Part shown: positions 2,533-22,377 of the stretch, piece after piece
How positions within the stretch are numbered: position 1 is the first letter of the stretch
Layout: the number at the start of each line of letters is the position of its first letter
IMG/VR virus record: IMGVR_UViG_3300009034_000213
Coordinates: 1-23,265 of that record
Reading direction: 5' to 3' (one strand)
Length of the DNA stretch: 23,265 nucleotides
Origin: a virus
Translations under genes and position numbers: made by a program
The notes under the pieces: generated by a model
What the model was told of the DNA's origin: nothing
Seen by the model: only the letters and a program-made list of their open reading frames with translations
Databases searched by the model: none

Positions 2533-2728
2533 CTCGTTCGTCCCGACGGCAGAGATAAAGGGAGGGGAGGAGGACGACCGCCCCCCTCACACCTTCCCCC
2601 GTGGGGTCACAACAGCCCTTTCCCTAAATCAGGAGTTCAGCAGCCCTGAGTTTCCCCGGTCCTGCAACGCAGGATGAGTGTCCGCTCATTCACCGCACGT
2701 CAAAGCTGCCGAATCTCCTGATACTGGT
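2533..2728. other. Divergent intergenic region with hairpins
   Basis: This is non-coding DNA between the leftward lysis block and the rightward structural operon. It contains a polypurine run (about 2555-2575), a TCCTGC/GCAGGA hairpin at 2660-2665/2669-2674 and ATGAG/CTCAT arms at 2674-2678/2685-2689. GGTAG/CTACC arms at 2726-2736 straddle its right edge. If a leftward promoter lies near 2729-2758, most of this would be the 5' leader of the lysis messenger. Confidence 0.5.
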
Positions 2729-2758
2729 AGTCTACCATATTGACACCCATCGTGTCAA
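2729..2758 (-). promoter_or_regulatory. Possible leftward sigma70-like promoter
   Basis: On the minus strand a perfect TTGACA (2758-2753) is followed after 18 bases by TAGACT (2734-2729), which matches four of six -10 bases. It would drive the lysis block with a leader of roughly 190 bases. The -35 is the mirror half of the inverted repeat that also carries the rightward -35. The weak -10 makes this tentative. Confidence 0.35.
2740..2758. promoter_or_regulatory. 19 bp inverted repeat, candidate operator
   Basis: TTGACAC (2740-2746) and GTGTCAA (2752-2758) are perfect inverted arms separated by CCATC. The left arm is the rightward -35 box and the right arm read on the minus strand is another TTGACA. 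A dimeric regulator bound here would block RNA polymerase in one or both directions. No regulator gene is in the window; operator function is inference. Confidence 0.45.
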
Positions 2759-2768
2759 GTGGTATGCT
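2740..2768 (+). promoter_or_regulatory. Rightward sigma70-type promoter for the structural operon
   Basis: A perfect TTGACA at 2740-2745 is followed by exactly 17 bases and TATGCT at 2763-2768 (four of six, including the key first two and last positions). Transcription would begin near 2775, only about ten bases before the ATG at 2785. It lies directly upstream of the first gene of the packaging operon. Confidence 0.6.
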
Positions 2769-2784
2769 TAGGATGGGTAGGTGT

Positions 2785-3066
2785 ATGGAAACTGATATTG
2801 GCAACATTCAACAAGCTGGGGCTATCCAGAAGGTTAGTCCTGAAGCAAATCCATACAAAGAGATGGCGCCTGAGGCTCGCTCGGTGCTCCGTCGCCTGAT
2901 GTATAACTCGCGGAACGAGAAAATCAGGAAGGAAACGGCGATGGATATCCTTGACAGAGCAGGGGAGGCCGGTATGAAGCCGGAAAACTTCCAAAGGCCC
3001 ATCATCATCAAGGACTCACAAGTTGTCCTTCTCCTGAAGGCAGCGCAGGAGGCATTGAGTGAGTAA
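2785..3066 (+). CDS. Putative terminase small subunit
   Basis: The product is 93 residues and mostly helical. The ATG at 2785 fits the promoter just upstream; an in-frame ATG at 2773 is possible, but the ribosome site is weak in both cases (GGGTAGG). Residues 29-60 include an AMDILDRAG motif (52-60), which I know from many small phage proteins beside terminases, often annotated as terminase small subunits or their DNA-binding parts. Small terminases recognise the packaging site and load the large subunit. The position directly before the large terminase supports the call, but I cannot see a clear helix-turn-helix. It overlaps the following zinc-ribbon ORF by 8 bases. Confidence 0.55.
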   Translation: METDIGNIQQAGAIQKVSPEANPYKEMAPEARSVLRRLMYNSRNEKIRKETAMDILDRAGEAGMKPENFQRPIIIKDSQVVLLLKAAQEALSE

Positions 3067-3268
3067 GAAGAGGAGACCGAGTTGTCCACAGTGCTCGAAG
3101 CTCCTGTCGCCGACGAGCAACGGGATGAGGTGTACAAGCTGTGGGAAGCTGGTAGGTTATCAGGAAGCGATGTCTCTGGGGACGCAGAACTCAGAAAGAC
3201 CTATAGAGACCTTGCATCGAAAAGCCTTTACTTCTTTGTCAAGGGCATCCTCCAGTATCCCGACCTAA
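3059..3268 (+). CDS. Overlapping zinc-ribbon ORF at the terminase start
   Basis: The product is 69 residues. A GTG start at 3059 is preceded by a perfect AGGAGG (3047-3052) with a 6-base spacer and overlaps the previous stop (GTGAGTAA). Residues 9-12 (CPQC) and 25-28 (CTSC, then GK) form a textbook CxxC-x12-CxxC zinc ribbon behind a basic N-terminus (SKKRR). From 3082 on, 187 bases are shared with the terminase in another frame, and the last 35 residues look like a frame shadow. Either it is a true small zinc-binding protein whose tail is overprinted, or a frameshift joins it to the terminase, or it is chance. The ribosome site plus the complete metal motif favour the first. Confidence 0.55.
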   Translation: MSKKRRPSCPQCSKLLSPTSNGMRCTSCGKLVGYQEAMSLGTQNSERPIETLHRKAFTSLSRASSSIPT

Positions 3269-4710
3269 CACGAGAGTCGCACCTTCCGTACTGTCAGTTC
3301 TTACAGGACTTCAAGGTAAAGAGAACTCTTGACCTCATGCCCCGTGGTGTCTATAAGACCACTTGCGGCACCATCGGTCTTGCTCCTTTCTACGTTCTAA
3401 ACCATCCAAATAACAGAGGACTAATCGCTAACCAGACTGCCGACAACGCTGAGGACATTCTGCTTGAAATAGAGGGCCATTTCGATGGCTCGAACTCCAT
3501 GGTCAACTGGATTCTGCCGGATATGGTTAAGCCCGGCGATAAGTGGGGACCATGGAATCGGAAGCAGATGAGGTTCCCGTGCAAGGATGGCGCTAGAGCT
3601 TCCTTGGAGGCCCTGGGCGTAGGAACCCGCTCTGAGACTCGGCACTTCCATATCATATTTAATGATGACCTTATCGGTTCCAAGGACATGGAGTCTGACC
3701 GCGAGATGCTTAGTGCCATCACTTGGCACGACTACTCTGTATCGTTGTTCGTGAACCCACGATTCGGGATAGAGAGGATGCACGGGACCAGATGGTCCCT
3801 GAGCGATCTCTATTCTGTCATTCTTGAGGACCCCGTTTACAAATACTACATAAAGCCGGCCATTGATCCTGCGACCGGTGAGGCTCTGTTCCCCCACATA
3901 CTTGACCTTGAAACTCTGCGGCATATTCGTGATACGAACTACGCCGTTTTCATGTCCCAGTACATGAACGATCCTCTCAACCCTGAGGCTCTTGACTTCC
4001 GGGAGGCCTGGGTCAGGCGGTATGCACTTGTCAAGACGGATGATGGGCCGGCCTGTAGAGCCGACGGTAGACTGTACTTCGTTAAGGATATGGATGTCGT
4101 CATAGTCGTTGACCCAGCAGGGTCAGGAGACGTTGACACGAGACTTAGTGAGGTCATCAAGCGCGGTAGGGCCCATAAGTCCAACAACGCTGTTGCGGCG
4201 GTCGGCCATCACGGCTCTGGAAATTACTTTCTGCTTGACCTGTGGGTAGGTAGAGGAAGGGGCGAGAACCCCGAACTTCAGGTTGCGGAACAGATGATGC
4301 AGATGGCGATGCGCTGGCATGGGTATGCTCGACGCGGATATGTCGAGGCCTATGGTGCTCAGGCTTCGCTAATTACGATTTACAATATGCTGTGCAGACA
4401 GCAATCGTTCATGTTCAGATTTGAGGAGATTCCCCGTGGAATCCAGAAGGCCAAAACGGTGAGAATCCGAGGTGCTCTCGGGTCTATTGGTCAGAATGGT
4501 CAAATCTACGTCAGACCCTCACACGATGTGTTCATTTACGAGTACTCCCGCTTTCCACAGATACAGCAAATGGACACCTTGGATGCTTTCACTTGGGCGG
4601 TATTGATGCTGAAGCCCAGAAGGGACGACGCAACTGCCATAACGATACGAAAGGACGCCGAGAAGAGGAAGCGGCGGCGCCTCAGAGTTGTCGGAAGGAG
4701 AGGGTACTAA
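3082..4710 (+). CDS. terL: Terminase large subunit (packaging ATPase and nuclease)
   Basis: The product is 542 residues, normal for the family. It pumps DNA into the procapsid through the portal and cuts concatemers. The ATPase part shows a Walker A-like PRGVYKTT (87-94) and a Walker B-like IIFNDD (191-196). The RNase H-type nuclease part has likely metal ligands D344 in VVIVVDPAG, E422 in VEAYG and D501 in DTLDAF. The C-terminus is strongly basic (EKRKRRRLRVVGRRG). The TTG start at 3082 has AGGAG six bases upstream. Its first 62 codons are shared with the zinc-ribbon ORF in another frame, so the exact N-terminus is uncertain; the conserved-looking part starts near residue 36. Confidence 0.92.
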   Translation: MSTVLEAPVADEQRDEVYKLWEAGRLSGSDVSGDAELRKTYRDLASKSLYFFVKGILQYPDLTRESHLPYCQFLQDFKVKRTLDLMPRGVYKTTCGTIGLAPFYVLNHPNNRGLIANQTADNAEDILLEIEGHFDGSNSMVNWILPDMVKPGDKWGPWNRKQMRFPCKDGARASLEALGVGTRSETRHFHIIFNDDLIGSKDMESDREMLSAITWHDYSVSLFVNPRFGIERMHGTRWSLSDLYSVILEDPVYKYYIKPAIDPATGEALFPHILDLETLRHIRDTNYAVFMSQYMNDPLNPEALDFREAWVRRYALVKTDDGPACRADGRLYFVKDMDVVIVVDPAGSGDVDTRLSEVIKRGRAHKSNNAVAAVGHHGSGNYFLLDLWVGRGRGENPELQVAEQMMQMAMRWHGYARRGYVEAYGAQASLITIYNMLCRQQSFMFRFEEIPRGIQKAKTVRIRGALGSIGQNGQIYVRPSHDVFIYEYSRFPQIQQMDTLDAFTWAVLMLKPRRDDATAITIRKDAEKRKRRRLRVVGRRGY

Positions 4711-4943
4711 TGCCAGGTAAAGGATGCAAGAAGGGGGGTCGGGCGCATACCCCAATCAAGTCTAAGGCCCAGCGTGGTGCCATGGGAGCAGCCTATGGTG
4801 CTAAGAAGGCCGGGAAGACTCCTACAAGGGAGCCGTCGAGGACGATGGCGAAGTCCATGACGAAGAAGACGTTGAAAAGACATCTGCATGAGGCCAAAGG
4901 AAAGAAGCTCCCGAAGAAGGTGACCAGGAAGAAGAAGGCATGA
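4710..4943 (+). CDS. Small, very basic protein
   Basis: The product is 77 residues. The ATG at 4710 overlaps the terminase stop as TAATG and has AAGGAGAGGG upstream. Roughly a third of the residues are Lys or Arg. A KSKAQRGAMGAAYGAKKAG segment (17-35) and a C-terminal KKLPKKVTRKKK tail stand out. Similar short basic proteins with a KSKAQ motif are common between terminase and portal genes in phages, but their role is not established. Nucleic-acid binding is a plain inference from charge. It overlaps the portal start by 4 bases (ATGA). Confidence 0.75.
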   Translation: MPGKGCKKGGRAHTPIKSKAQRGAMGAAYGAKKAGKTPTREPSRTMAKSMTKKTLKRHLHEAKGKKLPKKVTRKKKA

Positions 4944-6961
4944 GCGACGTTCAGCCAACAACAGTGGGGAAGACTCTTGCAACTCGGGCCGTCGGTATGG
5001 AGACTGAGCAGGCCATTGCTGATCAGGCTCTGCAAGCGCAGATCGATATACCGAGGGAGAAACTCGAAGAGATTACTCAGTGGCTCTATGAGGAAATTAC
5101 CGAGGCCAAGAACGATAGGACGCTTCTCGATAAGAGATTGCTTCTATGGGAACAGCTCTACGAGGCACGGCCGGAGTATGAGACTAAGACGGAGCCGTGG
5201 GAGGGCGCATGTAACCTTGTCATTCCTGTGATCGCTACTGCTGTGGACGCTGTCCTCGCGAGGCTCCTGAACGTCGTCTTTGGTGGGAAGCGGCTCTGGC
5301 TTCCAGTCGCTAAGGCCAAGGGGTGGGTTGACTCAGTTCCTACAATCGAGCTCTGGCTCGACTGGTGCCAGCGGGAAGTTCTCAAGATGTACAACGTTTG
5401 CCAGCGATGGTTCCTGTCGCTGACGAAGTACGGAACCGGGATTCTGAAGCTCCCGTGGGTTCAGAGGTTTAGGAATGTTCACTACCGTGACCAGGATGGG
5501 AGAGAGGTCAAAGATAGGATAGTAATCCATAATGGTCCCATGCCTGAGAATGTGCCGCTGACTCATTTTCTCTTCTCGTCCGATGCTATAATGGAGGAGG
5601 GGATTCAGTACTGCTCGTGGGTGGACCACAGAACTATCCAGACCAAGAAGGAGCTGAAGGAGAAGGAAGTATCCAACATCTATACGAACGTAGATGAAGT
5701 CCTGAAGTACACCGGGCAGACAACGGAGGAGATTGATGACCAGCAGGAGGAGACTACTGGCGTCCAGCCCGTGATCAAAAAGACCAGAGATATCCACGAG
5801 GTCTGGGCCTCCTACGATGTGGACGGGGACGGCTTTCTCGAAGAGATAGTTGTTGATATGCACCTGGAGACCAAGACCGTTGTGAGAGCCGTGTACAATT
5901 TCTATCGGCATCAGGAGAGGCCATTCCACATGGTCCGCTATATGCCGAGAGACAACAACCTGCTCGGTATAGGTCTTTGTCAGATGTTGGCCGACATCCA
6001 GGAAGAGATCACGACGATTCACAGGCAGAGGATCGACAATGCAACTATTGCGAATACCAGGGCTTGGCTTCGTCGTAGAGGTTCAACTCTCGGCACTGAG
6101 GAAATCTATCCGGGAGCGTTTGTCGACGTTGATGAACCGGATGACATTCAAGAACTCAAGCTCGGTGACATTTATCCTTCGCTGCTCCAAGAAGAGCTAC
6201 ATACTAATGCGATCGGCGAGAAGCGGACGGGAGTGTCTGATTATACTGTTGGAAGAGAGTCTCAAGCCATCGGTTCTCGTGCGACTGCTACGTCAACGCT
6301 CGCTCTTATCAGGGAAGGTAATAAGCGGTTCCAGATGACCATCAGGGACATCAGGGAAAGGCTCAACGATATAGCGCACCAAGTGATCATGCTCTATCAG
6401 CAGTTCGCTCCTCATCAGGAAGTCACTTACGAGATGTTCGATAAGGAAGAGCGAAGGTGGATGCAGCAACTTCTGCAGTTGCCTGTTGAGTATTCTCGTG
6501 CGAGTGTTGTCATCGACACTCCAGCGATCTCCGAGGTGTATAACAAGGAGATCGTCCAGCAGACGATGCTCACTCTGATGGGAGTTGTGCAGCAGTTCTA
6601 TAACGGGATAGCTCAGGCGTTTATGGTAGCTACGGCACCGACTGCACCTGAGCCTCTCAAAGCTCTCGCGGCACAAGGAGCACAGGCCGGCGCGAAGATT
6701 TGGGAGAAGGTTCTGGAGGCATTTGATATTAGAGATGCGGAGACTTACGTGCCGGATGTCGAGGGGATGCTCGGCTTTTCTCAGGCAGCGGAAACTCTGC
6801 AACAATTAGGAGGTCAAGGTGGCCGACTCGGAACAACTGGAGAAGCTGGAGGAGAAGCTGGGACTCTTGGGCAGAGCCTCATCGAACGTACTTTGGGGCT
6901 TGGTGGTGAAAGAGCTGGAACGCCGGAAGGAGAGCGAGCTGCGCAACTGGTTGGCAGGTAG
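4940..6961 (+). CDS. Portal protein (head-tail connector)
   Basis: The product is 673 residues, in the range of large podovirus-type portals. Portals form a 12-fold ring at one capsid vertex, dock the terminase and nucleate assembly. Evidence: the TEPWEGACNLVIPVIAT segment (84-100), typical of the portal N-terminal region; a YMPRDNNLLGIGL block near 330-345 followed by long helices with a DN.T.AN pattern; and an Ala/Gln-rich helical C-terminus that could line the channel. It follows the terminase in the canonical order. The last 48 codons are glycine-rich and are overprinted by the next gene (143-base overlap). Confidence 0.85.
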   Translation: MSDVQPTTVGKTLATRAVGMETEQAIADQALQAQIDIPREKLEEITQWLYEEITEAKNDRTLLDKRLLLWEQLYEARPEYETKTEPWEGACNLVIPVIATAVDAVLARLLNVVFGGKRLWLPVAKAKGWVDSVPTIELWLDWCQREVLKMYNVCQRWFLSLTKYGTGILKLPWVQRFRNVHYRDQDGREVKDRIVIHNGPMPENVPLTHFLFSSDAIMEEGIQYCSWVDHRTIQTKKELKEKEVSNIYTNVDEVLKYTGQTTEEIDDQQEETTGVQPVIKKTRDIHEVWASYDVDGDGFLEEIVVDMHLETKTVVRAVYNFYRHQERPFHMVRYMPRDNNLLGIGLCQMLADIQEEITTIHRQRIDNATIANTRAWLRRRGSTLGTEEIYPGAFVDVDEPDDIQELKLGDIYPSLLQEELHTNAIGEKRTGVSDYTVGRESQAIGSRATATSTLALIREGNKRFQMTIRDIRERLNDIAHQVIMLYQQFAPHQEVTYEMFDKEERRWMQQLLQLPVEYSRASVVIDTPAISEVYNKEIVQQTMLTLMGVVQQFYNGIAQAFMVATAPTAPEPLKALAAQGAQAGAKIWEKVLEAFDIRDAETYVPDVEGMLGFSQAAETLQQLGGQGGRLGTTGEAGGEAGTLGQSLIERTLGLGGERAGTPEGERAAQLVGR

Positions 6962-13729: not shown

Positions 13730-13884
13730 TGCGCAGGAAGCCGAGCAAAAACAGTGCCAGTTTCAGGGGCCGTGATACGTGCGATCGTTGCGGTCAAGAG
13801 TGGTTCTGTGACGAACTCAAGAGATCACAGAAGGGCCTGAACCTCTGCGTGAATTGTTACGACGAGAATGAGGACGAAACATGA
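13729..13884 (+). CDS. Zinc-ribbon microprotein
   Basis: The product is 51 residues. The ATG at 13729 overlaps the previous stop (TGATG), and its own stop overlaps the adaptor start (ATGA). It has CDRC (18-21) and CVNC (40-43), the classic CxxC-x18-CxxC spacing of a zinc ribbon, with an extra Cys in the loop (C26). The N-terminus is basic and the C-terminus acidic (YDENEDET). It probably binds zinc; the partner is unknown. It is the second zinc-ribbon ORF of this window, besides the one at 3059. Confidence 0.65.
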   Translation: MRRKPSKNSASFRGRDTCDRCGQEWFCDELKRSQKGLNLCVNCYDENEDET

Positions 13885-18750: not shown

Positions 18751-21205
18751 ACTGCTTAGGCCGGTAATGTTTGGAATCGTCCCGGCGAACAAGGGGAAGA
18801 ATGTCTCTGAGACCGCGAGGGCCATAGACATGCGCGAGTCTCCCGACCTCATGAACGTCAGGTTTCATCATAGCCAAATCTGCACGAGAGACGGTTTCAA
18901 GTCCAAATATTTCGGTGGAAATGAGGCGATTCTTTGGATTGACGTTACGTACGCTTCTGACGGAACGTTTTCTGCCTTGATCTGTTACGGCATATCTCAG
19001 TTGTACCAGGTCCCGTCTGGTGTATATGATATGATTCCGATAGAGGTCTTCAGCGACGCCAGCGCAATAATGTCGCTGACTACCGACCCTGCTGCGGACT
19101 TCTACTCCGTAGATGTCGGTGAGGGGGCTTATGACGCCAAGACTATCAACGGTGGAGCCCTCTATCCAGCTTCTGGATACGCCAGTATCATGGCGTTCAC
19201 CAATCAGGCGGATGGAGTGTTCATCGTGATTCCCGGGGCCGGCGGTGCTCCTCTCGAAGCGGAGGAGATAGAGGACGTCGCCGGTGTGGGACTGGCCAGC
19301 GCCAGGTGCGTCGCCTTTTTTGCCGGCAGACTCGTCGTTGGAGGGAGCACTTCGAGCAACGCTGAACTCCTCTGGTCTGCTGACGGAGCGTTCGAGGAGT
19401 TTGACCCCGCTGCTGACCCTTCTTGTGGAGCAAAGCTCCTTGGAGACGGCGCTGACTGGATTCAGAACATGTTTCGCATGGGTGATAACCTGATCATCTA
19501 CAAGGAGAGGTCAATTTACATTGGGCGGAAGACTTACATTACTGATCCACCCATTGCCTTCGAGCCGGCCCCAGGACAAGGTATCGGCCTTGCTGCTCCG
19601 TTGTCTATTGGTGACCTCGGAGAGGAACATCTGTTCCTTGGATGGGACGACGTTTATACTTTCTCACTGAATGGCCTGGATACCGTTGGTGAGAGAATAA
19701 AGGACGAACTGTTTGGTCGTGTCGGTGAGAATGGGATTCTGCCGGAGTACGTTCATCGGTGTGTCGGGATCATTGCTGAGGAGTTCGACGAGTATTGGCT
19801 CTTCGTACCAACGGGGAAGTTCCCAACCTGCGAGAATCTGCTTGAGTGTGGTGATTGCGCTTTCGTCAGGACTACTGGCGATACTCACTCGAACACGACA
19901 GTTGATGATATCACTGCTCTCGATTGGGGGCACATACGGGTCGGTGATACGATCATAGGGTCCAACATTCCTGCCGGCGCTTATGTAGTAGCGAAGCCGT
20001 CGAGCGGGACGGTCACGATAAGCGCTGCGGCAACTGCGACGGAGAACGATATTGAGATTTGGTTTGGGAACGTGGCTGCACAGCCGTGGTCAGAAGCCAC
20101 AGATGATACTGCTACTTGGACGGCAAAGGCCGGTGGCAACTTCGGAGGGATTTACCAAGAGATTGTAATGACCGCTGGTGCCTACGCAAAGATTCAGCAG
20201 GAATATGACTACGGCTCCACTCAGGGCGCTGGAATAGTCATCTCTATCGTGGTGTGGGCAAAGACGGAGCACACGACGACCAGGACGTTGCGGATAGTCG
20301 GTGTGGAAGTAGGGCCGGGAGAGGACGGAACTTCTCATAGTGAGGACTATGACATAGCTGCTGATGAGGCCGATTGGCTTCCTTACTTCTTCTCTTTCAC
20401 TTCTGTCGATGCCGACATGGAGAAGGTGCGCGTTGAGGTGCAGACGATAACTGTCGATGCTAAACTCCATGTAGATGCTGTTCAGATGATTGATATCACC
20501 AGCCTCACGTCGGACGATCTCTACACCGATCCGACGAGCGGGTATCAGTGCCCCGGTTACGTCGAGGCGGATAACGAGATGGTGATGATTCCGTTCATCG
20601 TCGACAAGTGCGGGCCGTGGGTCTGTGACACCGTTTGGGTCTATAACTATGAGGACGATGCCTGGTCCTGCTGGCGATTGCCAATGTGTGGTTTCGGCTA
20701 TGATACGCTGGCTACGGCCATCACGATAGCCGACCTGGAAGGTATGATCTCTGACATAACGTGGCGATACGACGACACGGCTCTCGAGGCCTTCTCACCG
20801 ACGAACTTGGTATCTCCTGTCGACGGACAGGTGTATGAGATATCGAGAGCCTACTCGAAGGACTACCAAGGATTCACAGACAGGAGCAGTTTCGTCTTCT
20901 GCTTTTGGGAGTCGAAGGACTTCGACTTGGGCAGACCTCATCTTGACAAGACGTTCATGCGACTTGTCATTTACCATGAAGTGTCCCACTATCCTTCAGA
21001 GATCATTGTCGGCTTCTCGACGGACTCAGGGAGCACATGGGAGGAACAGACGGTAACGATCCGCACCGGCTTTACAGAGACGTTCGCGGACTTTATAGCA
21101 ACAGGAACTCAAGGAAGGTTCAAGGTCAGGAGCAGCGGGCAAGGGATCAGGCTCTCCGGCTTCGCTGTCAAAGTCGTACCAAGAGGGGAGACAAATGTCT
21201 ATTGA
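18743..21205 (+). CDS. Tail nozzle/stabilisation-like protein with inserted domains
   Basis: The product is 820 residues, beta-rich throughout. The start ARAIDMRESPDLMNVRF (25-41) with TRDGF after it, and repeated propeller-like blades (ARCVAFFAGRLVVGGS, MFRMGDNLIIYKERSIYIG, LFLGWDDVYTFSLNG, EYWLFVPTG), resemble podovirus tail nozzle or stabilisation proteins. Around residue 358 the blade breaks off and resumes near 610 (MVMIPFIVDK, then TVWVYNYEDDAWSCW). The gap holds two inserted parts: a VGDTIIGSNIPAGAYVV-type module (about 375-445) and a jelly-roll, carbohydrate-binding-like domain (about 448-585). The C-terminal 130 residues are again beta. It would sit at the end of the short tail. Confidence 0.65.
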   Translation: MAKLLRPVMFGIVPANKGKNVSETARAIDMRESPDLMNVRFHHSQICTRDGFKSKYFGGNEAILWIDVTYASDGTFSALICYGISQLYQVPSGVYDMIPIEVFSDASAIMSLTTDPAADFYSVDVGEGAYDAKTINGGALYPASGYASIMAFTNQADGVFIVIPGAGGAPLEAEEIEDVAGVGLASARCVAFFAGRLVVGGSTSSNAELLWSADGAFEEFDPAADPSCGAKLLGDGADWIQNMFRMGDNLIIYKERSIYIGRKTYITDPPIAFEPAPGQGIGLAAPLSIGDLGEEHLFLGWDDVYTFSLNGLDTVGERIKDELFGRVGENGILPEYVHRCVGIIAEEFDEYWLFVPTGKFPTCENLLECGDCAFVRTTGDTHSNTTVDDITALDWGHIRVGDTIIGSNIPAGAYVVAKPSSGTVTISAAATATENDIEIWFGNVAAQPWSEATDDTATWTAKAGGNFGGIYQEIVMTAGAYAKIQQEYDYGSTQGAGIVISIVVWAKTEHTTTRTLRIVGVEVGPGEDGTSHSEDYDIAADEADWLPYFFSFTSVDADMEKVRVEVQTITVDAKLHVDAVQMIDITSLTSDDLYTDPTSGYQCPGYVEADNEMVMIPFIVDKCGPWVCDTVWVYNYEDDAWSCWRLPMCGFGYDTLATAITIADLEGMISDITWRYDDTALEAFSPTNLVSPVDGQVYEISRAYSKDYQGFTDRSSFVFCFWESKDFDLGRPHLDKTFMRLVIYHEVSHYPSEIIVGFSTDSGSTWEEQTVTIRTGFTETFADFIATGTQGRFKVRSSGQGIRLSGFAVKVVPRGETNVY

Positions 21206-21821
21206 ACCGCCCAAAGGGGCTAAGTTTTTGGAGATCAACAGTCCTCAGAAGATCATGCAGATTTGGCTGACTCTGAACGACATCAAGGGACTGTTTGACG
21301 ATTACACGAAGAACAGGCCAGACCTGTTCAGGAACCTGGTAGTGATGCCCAATACATTGTGGCTTGAGAGAGAGGACGGAAATGGGCTCCTGTATTTGAC
21401 GGAAATTATGCCAGGGCTCTCTGCCAATGCTCATATTGTCTATTGGGACAGGATACTGAGCGGCAAAGAGGACTTCACGATGGACTGCCTAAGATGGGCA
21501 ATAACCAACTGCAACTTGCAGAAGGTTAACTGCTTTCTGCCGGACTACGCCAGGTCAGCGAGGCACTTCGCCAGAAAACTTGGCTTTCGGAGAGAAGGTG
21601 TTATAAGACGGTACTCCATCGGGAACAACCGAATGTTCGATATGTACATATTCGGTATCACAAGAGAGGAGGCCTTTAGCGATGGGCAACTTCGGACCGA
21701 GCGTGACACAGGTGGGAACGGAGAACCCGTTCATGCAGCAGTTCCAGGACTGGATGAAGGGACTCCAAGCCCCGCAGATGGAAGCTCCGGACACGAGCCG
21801 GATGGAGGGGATGCTCCGTGA
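21195..21821 (+). CDS. GNAT-like acyltransferase fold protein in the tail operon
   Basis: The product is 208 residues. The ATG at 21195 overlaps the nozzle gene end by 11 bases, with GAGGGGAG upstream. Residues 20-158 follow the GNAT order. YLTEIMPGLSANAHIVYW forms the central strands. CLRWAITNCNLQKVNCFLP is the helix-strand after them. ARSARHFARKLGFRREGVIR (119-138) is the typical C-terminal motif, followed by FDMYIFGITREE. I do not see the usual R/Q-x-x-G-x-G/A acetyl-CoA loop, so the protein might be inactive or structural. The last 48 residues are disordered and overprinted by the next gene. Similar GNAT-like genes occur in some podovirus tail operons; their role is unclear. Confidence 0.7.
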   Translation: MSIEPPKGAKFLEINSPQKIMQIWLTLNDIKGLFDDYTKNRPDLFRNLVVMPNTLWLEREDGNGLLYLTEIMPGLSANAHIVYWDRILSGKEDFTMDCLRWAITNCNLQKVNCFLPDYARSARHFARKLGFRREGVIRRYSIGNNRMFDMYIFGITREEAFSDGQLRTERDTGGNGEPVHAAVPGLDEGTPSPADGSSGHEPDGGDAP

Positions 21822-22377
21822 GCTTGGCGCCAACATAGGCCAGTACGGCGGTGACCTTTCAAAGTTTTTCTATGGAGCTATGACACAGCCCCCGACGGAC
21901 CTGTCGGGAGTAATGGATATCTTTGGCCAGATGGGGGACATCAGCCGTCAGAAGGCTTGGAGGGAGGCCATGGGTCGTGGCTATGGAGCGGGAAGCACTG
22001 CAGCTATTCGATCCGGCCTCGGAGCAATGCGGGAGGGCGACTTACGGAGTCAGCTTGCTGCTGCTGGTTTGGGTCTGGACGTCGCTGGACAGGAGTTCGG
22101 AAGGAGGATGGCCGGGGCGCAAGGTCTCATGGGGATGCCCGGCTACTACGCAGCTCCCACGTCCGTAGAGATGGGATTGCTCAACTTGCTCCAGCAAGGG
22201 GGTCTCGCCAACTTGCAGGCCCAGATGGGAACTCAGGGTCTTCAGGCCGGAGCGATGGGAGATATCTTCGCTCAGCAGCAGACGCAGCCAGTAATGATGC
22301 CAGGATGGGGGCAGACAATCGCGAGCCCCATTCTGGAAGCAATAGCGTCAGCAGCCACGCTGATCCCGTTCATCTAA
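21682..22377 (+). CDS. Gly/Met/Ala/Gln-rich virion protein, ejection protein candidate
   Basis: The product is 231 residues. The ATG at 21682 is preceded by GAGGAGG with an 8-base gap and lies 140 bases inside the GNAT gene in another frame. The sequence is poor in charge and rich in Gly, Met, Gln and Ala, with helical stretches (AIRSGLGAMREGDLRSQLAAAGLGL; LLNLLQQGGLANLQAQMG) and a hydrophobic C-terminal segment (SPILEAIASAATLIPFI). Such composition near the end of podovirus structural operons fits proteins released into the cell envelope with the DNA. No family-specific motif; role is inferred. Confidence 0.6.
   Translation: MGNFGPSVTQVGTENPFMQQFQDWMKGLQAPQMEAPDTSRMEGMLRELGANIGQYGGDLSKFFYGAMTQPPTDLSGVMDIFGQMGDISRQKAWREAMGRGYGAGSTAAIRSGLGAMREGDLRSQLAAAGLGLDVAGQEFGRRMAGAQGLMGMPGYYAAPTSVEMGLLNLLQQGGLANLQAQMGTQGLQAGAMGDIFAQQQTQPVMMPGWGQTIASPILEAIASAATLIPFI

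Follow-up and report, generated by a model that had tools for sequence, protein, structure and literature searches.

In known phage small terminases (TerS), the DNA-binding domain consists mostly of an N-terminal helix-turn-helix (HTH), and the herpesvirus TerS analogue bears zinc fingers (PMC9611059). The TerS of a gene transfer agent (GTA) has no HTH, and it has been proposed that sequence specificity is lost as a consequence (PMC6854486). The locus analysed here lies in a 23,265-nt stretch of viral DNA (the window; IMG/VR record IMGVR_UViG_3300009034_000213), in which a short TerS-like gene without a detectable HTH is followed by a zinc-ribbon gene that overlaps the start of the large terminase, TerL.

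All features described in the window were on the plus strand. The zinc-ribbon ORF (3059-3268) starts at a GTG, encodes 69 amino acids, and is preceded by AGGAGG at 3047-3052, a Shine-Dalgarno sequence (SD) with 6 nt spacing to the GTG; its cysteine codons (3083, 3092, 3131 and 3140, spanning 3083-3142) give CPQC-x12-CTSC, a CxxC-x12-CxxC pattern. TerL (3082-4710; phrog_38, E 1.5e-51) starts at a TTG 23 nt downstream of GTG 3059, with its own SD, AGGAG at 3071-3075, inside the zinc gene and 6 nt from the TTG, and this start position is common to the relatives. The two ORFs overlap over 187 nt (3082-3268), with the zinc frame at +1 relative to TerL. The preliminary description had reported the GTG ORF with AGGAGG-N6, the CxxC-x12-CxxC pattern, the TTG-initiated terminase with AGGAG-N6 and the 187-base overlap, and re-reading positions 2700-3600 confirmed every one of these details. 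The TerS-like ORF (2740-3066; TTG 2740, alternative ATG 2785) was assigned by its position and a conserved block, A..L...M.NS.NEKI..ETA..ILDRAGE, its match to a TerS family being weak (phrog_2538, E 0.029), and its stop codon, TAA 3064-3066, overlaps the start of the zinc gene. The next large gene after TerL encodes the portal protein (4940-6961; phrog_1216, E 1.7e-37; Pfam SU10_portal, E 2e-33), and between the two lies a small lysine-rich ORF (4593-4943), whose listed frame overlaps the end of TerL and for which a later start is likely. Elsewhere in the window, a second zinc-ribbon-like ORF (CDRCGQEWFCDELKRSQKGLNLCVNC) was found at ~13780-13860, without terminase overlap, and a same-strand ORF pair (21195-21821 and 21682-22377) shares 140 nt when the first ATG is taken as the start, the first of the pair having head-morphogenesis and acyltransferase matches.

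Relatives were gathered by staged TerL searches, giving L001, L005, L011, L012, L024, L032, L036 and L039, which together with the window make nine distinct sequences with the zinc gene (L013 is nearly identical to L012, and L038 is the same contig as L024). These zinc-bearing relatives are uncultured tailed viruses, all from metagenomes, and TerL identity among the nine sequences was 41-66%, except for the L001/L005 pair at 90%. A DNA pattern based on the overlap returned 16 loci, among them one new relative, L024; a search with the short TerS gave no loci beyond those already known, and neither the zinc protein searched against annotated phages nor a nucleotide search of 2740-3400 against phages produced a match. 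Archaeal viruses were present among the more distant TerL matches. L005 (DAOVFN010000080.1) is a 4 kb contig of the zinc-bearing clade placed in a bin named Aenigmatarchaeota; it may derive from a virus infecting that host, or the binning may be wrong.

Loss of the cysteines, or stop codons in the zinc frame, among relatives had been named beforehand as the outcome that would speak against a gene; in all nine sequences the frame was open at the same place and in the same relation to TerL, with the four cysteines kept at CxxC-x12-CxxC or CxxC-x13-CxxC spacing, a G[ML]xC motif, and a Tyr six residues past the last Cys. The zinc frame ended at its own stop in every relative, and its start overlapped, adjoined or lay close to the TerS stop wherever the two were compared. 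Comparable SDs preceded the zinc gene in five of the six relatives compared, and the zinc start was least clear in L039, where it was not obvious.

Codon-position divergence across the nine sequences was calculated along TerL. At codon positions 1, 2 and 3 it was 0.50, 0.36 and 0.44 in codons 2-36, and 0.39, 0.30 and 0.64 from codon 63 on, so that the depressed synonymous variation (third-position divergence of 0.44 vs 0.64) was confined to the overlap. Expressed as third-position divergence minus the mean of the other two, codons 2-36 gave 0.008, against a mean of 0.30 (sd 0.05, lowest 0.17) in TerL windows outside the overlap, making this the most extreme codon-position window in TerL. This pattern appears to fall between those expected of zinc-only and of TerL-only coding, which would be the outcome if both frames were constrained. 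The core of the signal, TerL codons 1-36 lying above the zinc ribbon (3082-3190), had the lowest third-position divergence in TerL. Within 3059-3268, for which the preliminary description suggested a synonymous-constraint analysis, constraint was seen only up to ~3190, the conserved core of the zinc ORF spanning ~3059-3190; because the codon-position pattern is normal from there on, the tail (~3190-3268, the last 25 zinc ORF residues) is not conserved, selection is not visible in it, and these residues look like passenger sequence.

The closest pair gave a finer view of the core. Between L001 and L005, 16 changes fell in the core and only 1 altered both proteins, vs 7.6 expected (P 5e-4), while zinc-synonymous changes numbered 7/16 in the core vs 12/77 further on. 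The window/L001 pair had too few changes in the core after RDEV for an informative pairwise test. When TerL synonyms were redrawn, the zinc frame stayed open with its cysteines kept at a probability of 0.001-0.021 per lineage, with a product over the seven other lineages of ~3e-16, a rough guide that assumes independence although the lineages share ancestry. Along TerL, the +1 frame was open in all nine sequences only at the N-terminus, and the +2 frame nowhere. That the zinc frame is an open frame left by chance, with a chance cysteine pattern, would be conceivable for the window alone (0.004 by redraw), and its product passes the cut-off of no zinc family; against it stand the codon-position pattern, the retention of the frame in nine sequences and the absence of a comparable opening elsewhere in TerL, and with both the relatives and the codon redraws opposed, this explanation was rejected as refuted for practical purposes, its remaining probability being negligible. 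Judged from these comparisons of sequence, dual coding of the overlap is highly probable.

The TerL start codon is built on a zinc-frame cysteine codon. In eight of the nine sequences it consists of the base before the Cys1 codon and the TG of that codon, as in the TTG of the window, and reads TTG in the window, L001, L005 and L012, GTG in L011 and L024, and ATG in L032 and L039; in L036 an ATG sits on Cys2 instead. An SD accompanied the Cys-codon start in five of six sequences tested, the exception being L012, which has an alternative upstream ATG. If only the zinc protein were made from the overlap, with TerL beginning further down, the variability of TerL residues 1-36, the absence of RDEV from L039 and L032, and the low confidence with which these residues were modelled, in an overall poor model, would all be expected. 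This arrangement is nevertheless improbable: the Cys-codon start and its SD are conserved, the only alternative starts in the window overlap (GTG 3091 and GTG 3130) have no SD, redrawn zinc synonyms left the TerL frame open at a rate of only 0-26%, depending on lineage, and changes altering TerL in the L001/L005 core numbered 6 vs 11.7 expected (P 0.003). Both frames behave as genes and the relatives support both starts, in agreement with the earlier view that both are real.

A ribosomal frameshift had also been put forward, by which a -1 shift would join the zinc frame to TerL and yield a motor bearing a zinc ribbon at its N-terminus. The relation of the frames fits such a shift, and the constraint on the zinc frame stops inside the overlap. 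However, six sequences were tested for a slippery heptamer (X-XXY-YYZ) in the zinc frame and all lacked one, their few 4-base runs lying at differing places with none shared; moreover, every relative terminates the zinc frame at a stop of its own, and the TerL start is kept at the Cys codon, with an SD in most. The fusion was rejected on the absence of a slippery site in the six sequences and is given very little probability. Since no conserved frameshift site was found, the zinc ORF and TerL are probably expressed as two separate proteins.

The zinc ORF product was characterised by family, fold and profile searches. Pfam gave no zinc family above its cut-off (best DZR_2, 17.8 bits vs a cut-off of 27), and the AF2 model contained a confident hairpin (~residues 11-40; strands 15-19 and 22-25 with high local confidence) followed by a low-confidence tail. 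By motif and model, the product appears to be ribbon-like and outside any Pfam family. The nearest matches in a fold search were zinc ribbons of nucleic-acid-binding proteins, none below E 0.001, and a zinc-family profile searched against solved structures retrieved generic ribbons only, at E 0.01 or worse.

In a TerL tree of 31 sequences, the nine zinc-bearing sequences formed one clade (support 100/99), outside which fell 22 related TerLs without the zinc gene; L040, L056 and L059 were closest to the clade, on a 90/89 fork. The residues preceding the SLYF motif numbered 45-56 in zinc-bearing TerLs and 15-39 in most others, with 46-52 in three zinc-less TerLs when counted from the first possible start. 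Within the overlap the zinc frame was better conserved than the TerL frame: TerL residues 1-36 were variable, RDEV was missing from L039 and L032, and in L039 GMRC was kept in the zinc frame where RDEV had been lost from the TerL frame. Fold prediction for TerL was poor (mean pLDDT of 50 for a model made with six sequences, with residues 1-36 at low confidence), and codon usage gave no indication of which frame is older. Because the zinc-bearing TerLs have a longer and variable N-terminus and the zinc frame is the better conserved, the TerL N-terminal extension probably grew upstream into an older zinc gene and overprinted it. The preliminary description had the zinc ORF overprinting the terminase, and this order is probably to be reversed.

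The TerS proteins also differed between the two groups. The nine encoded beside a zinc gene are short and share one conserved block, and a Pfam search of them gave no match and detected no HTH, whereas those zinc-less relatives with a recognisable TerS mostly encode 150-200 residues, and 7 of 10 tested had weak N-terminal matches to HTH-class Pfam families, all below curated cut-offs. Two observations weigh against reading the zinc gene as a substitute for the HTH. The exchange of one for the other is a single event on the tree, and L007, L008 and L052 have an HTH-less TerS and no zinc gene, so the zinc protein is not the sole way to dispense with an HTH. In L007 (MW202554.1, 2929-5466), TerL is annotated as two pieces, the first of which, by eye, enters an insert resembling an intein or Hint-type domain.

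We propose that TerS, the zinc-ribbon protein and TerL are encoded by a single packaging operon of overlapping genes. Ribosomes finishing TerS would restart at GTG 3059 and make a separate protein of ~70 residues, of which the first ~44 would fold as a four-cysteine zinc ribbon, and TerL would initiate 23 nt further on, at the codon built on a zinc Cys codon. The zinc protein may then act as a DNA-recognition or assembly module for the HTH-less TerS, so that the small terminase would be divided between one protein for oligomerisation and another with the zinc ribbon, and the older zinc gene would have been overprinted by the TerL extension. A role in packaging is indicated because all nine sequences keep the gene between TerS and TerL, a place from which it is absent in zinc-less relatives. 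Completion of TerS is the favoured role because TerS has no detectable HTH where the zinc gene is present and weak HTH-class matches in most zinc-less cases tested, because the HTH binds DNA in known TerS proteins, and because herpesviruses use zinc fingers. Taken whole, with ribosome restart and TerL overprinting included, this reading is tentative, its chances lying not far below even. The narrower claim of a phage terminase made of three proteins, with a free zinc ribbon in place of the TerS HTH as reader of the packaging site and a zinc-binding Cys codon that is also part of the motor start codon, is a bolder one and, at present, unlikely.

Zinc ribbons serve also in protein-protein contacts and transcription, and small ones are common in virus genomes. 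The zinc protein could accordingly be real and separately translated, yet regulate, for example, late transcription or the host RNA polymerase, or assist or restrain TerL, and be placed here by operon position only. RNA polymerase factors are found among its sequence and fold neighbours together with other generic ribbons, none of them significant, and the window holds a second zinc-ribbon-like ORF. The fixed place between TerS and TerL, together with its absence there in zinc-less TerL relatives, argues against such a role, which is a serious possibility of somewhat less than even likelihood.

The overlap of the zinc gene and TerL is a clean natural setting in which to ask which of the two frames came first, and it allows a test of whether a free zinc ribbon can carry packaging DNA recognition instead of an HTH. 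In this clade, gene annotation that disallows overlaps would overlook the zinc gene or put the TerL start in the wrong place. A literature search found no overlapping gene in a terminase module.

Compared with phage TerS proteins that combine an N-terminal HTH with an oligomerisation core (lambda, Sf6, SF6 and PaP3; PMC9611059), the locus shares a TerS directly before TerL, and the short TerS keeps a helical-looking block; unlike in those systems, no HTH is detectable and a zinc-ribbon gene follows TerS and overlaps TerL. The Rhodobacter capsulatus GTA TerS (PMC6854486) is likewise HTH-less, but the available portion of that source describes no overlapping zinc-ribbon gene and proposes that HTH loss led to non-specific packaging. 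The herpesvirus terminase pUL28/pUL33/pUL15 (PMC9611059) combines a small third subunit with zinc fingers located on its TerS-like side, and zinc-ribbon DNA recognition by the phage protein, if true, would parallel it; there, however, the zinc fingers are in the large pUL28 and its contact with pUL33, and the likeness is one of working principle only, with no sequence relation claimed. The embedded and overlapped Rz/Rz1 spanin genes (PMC6139136) similarly encode two phage proteins in overlapping same-strand frames, often missed by gene callers, but they are lysis genes, whereas here the overlap belongs to the packaging module, with a Cys codon also supplying part of a start codon.
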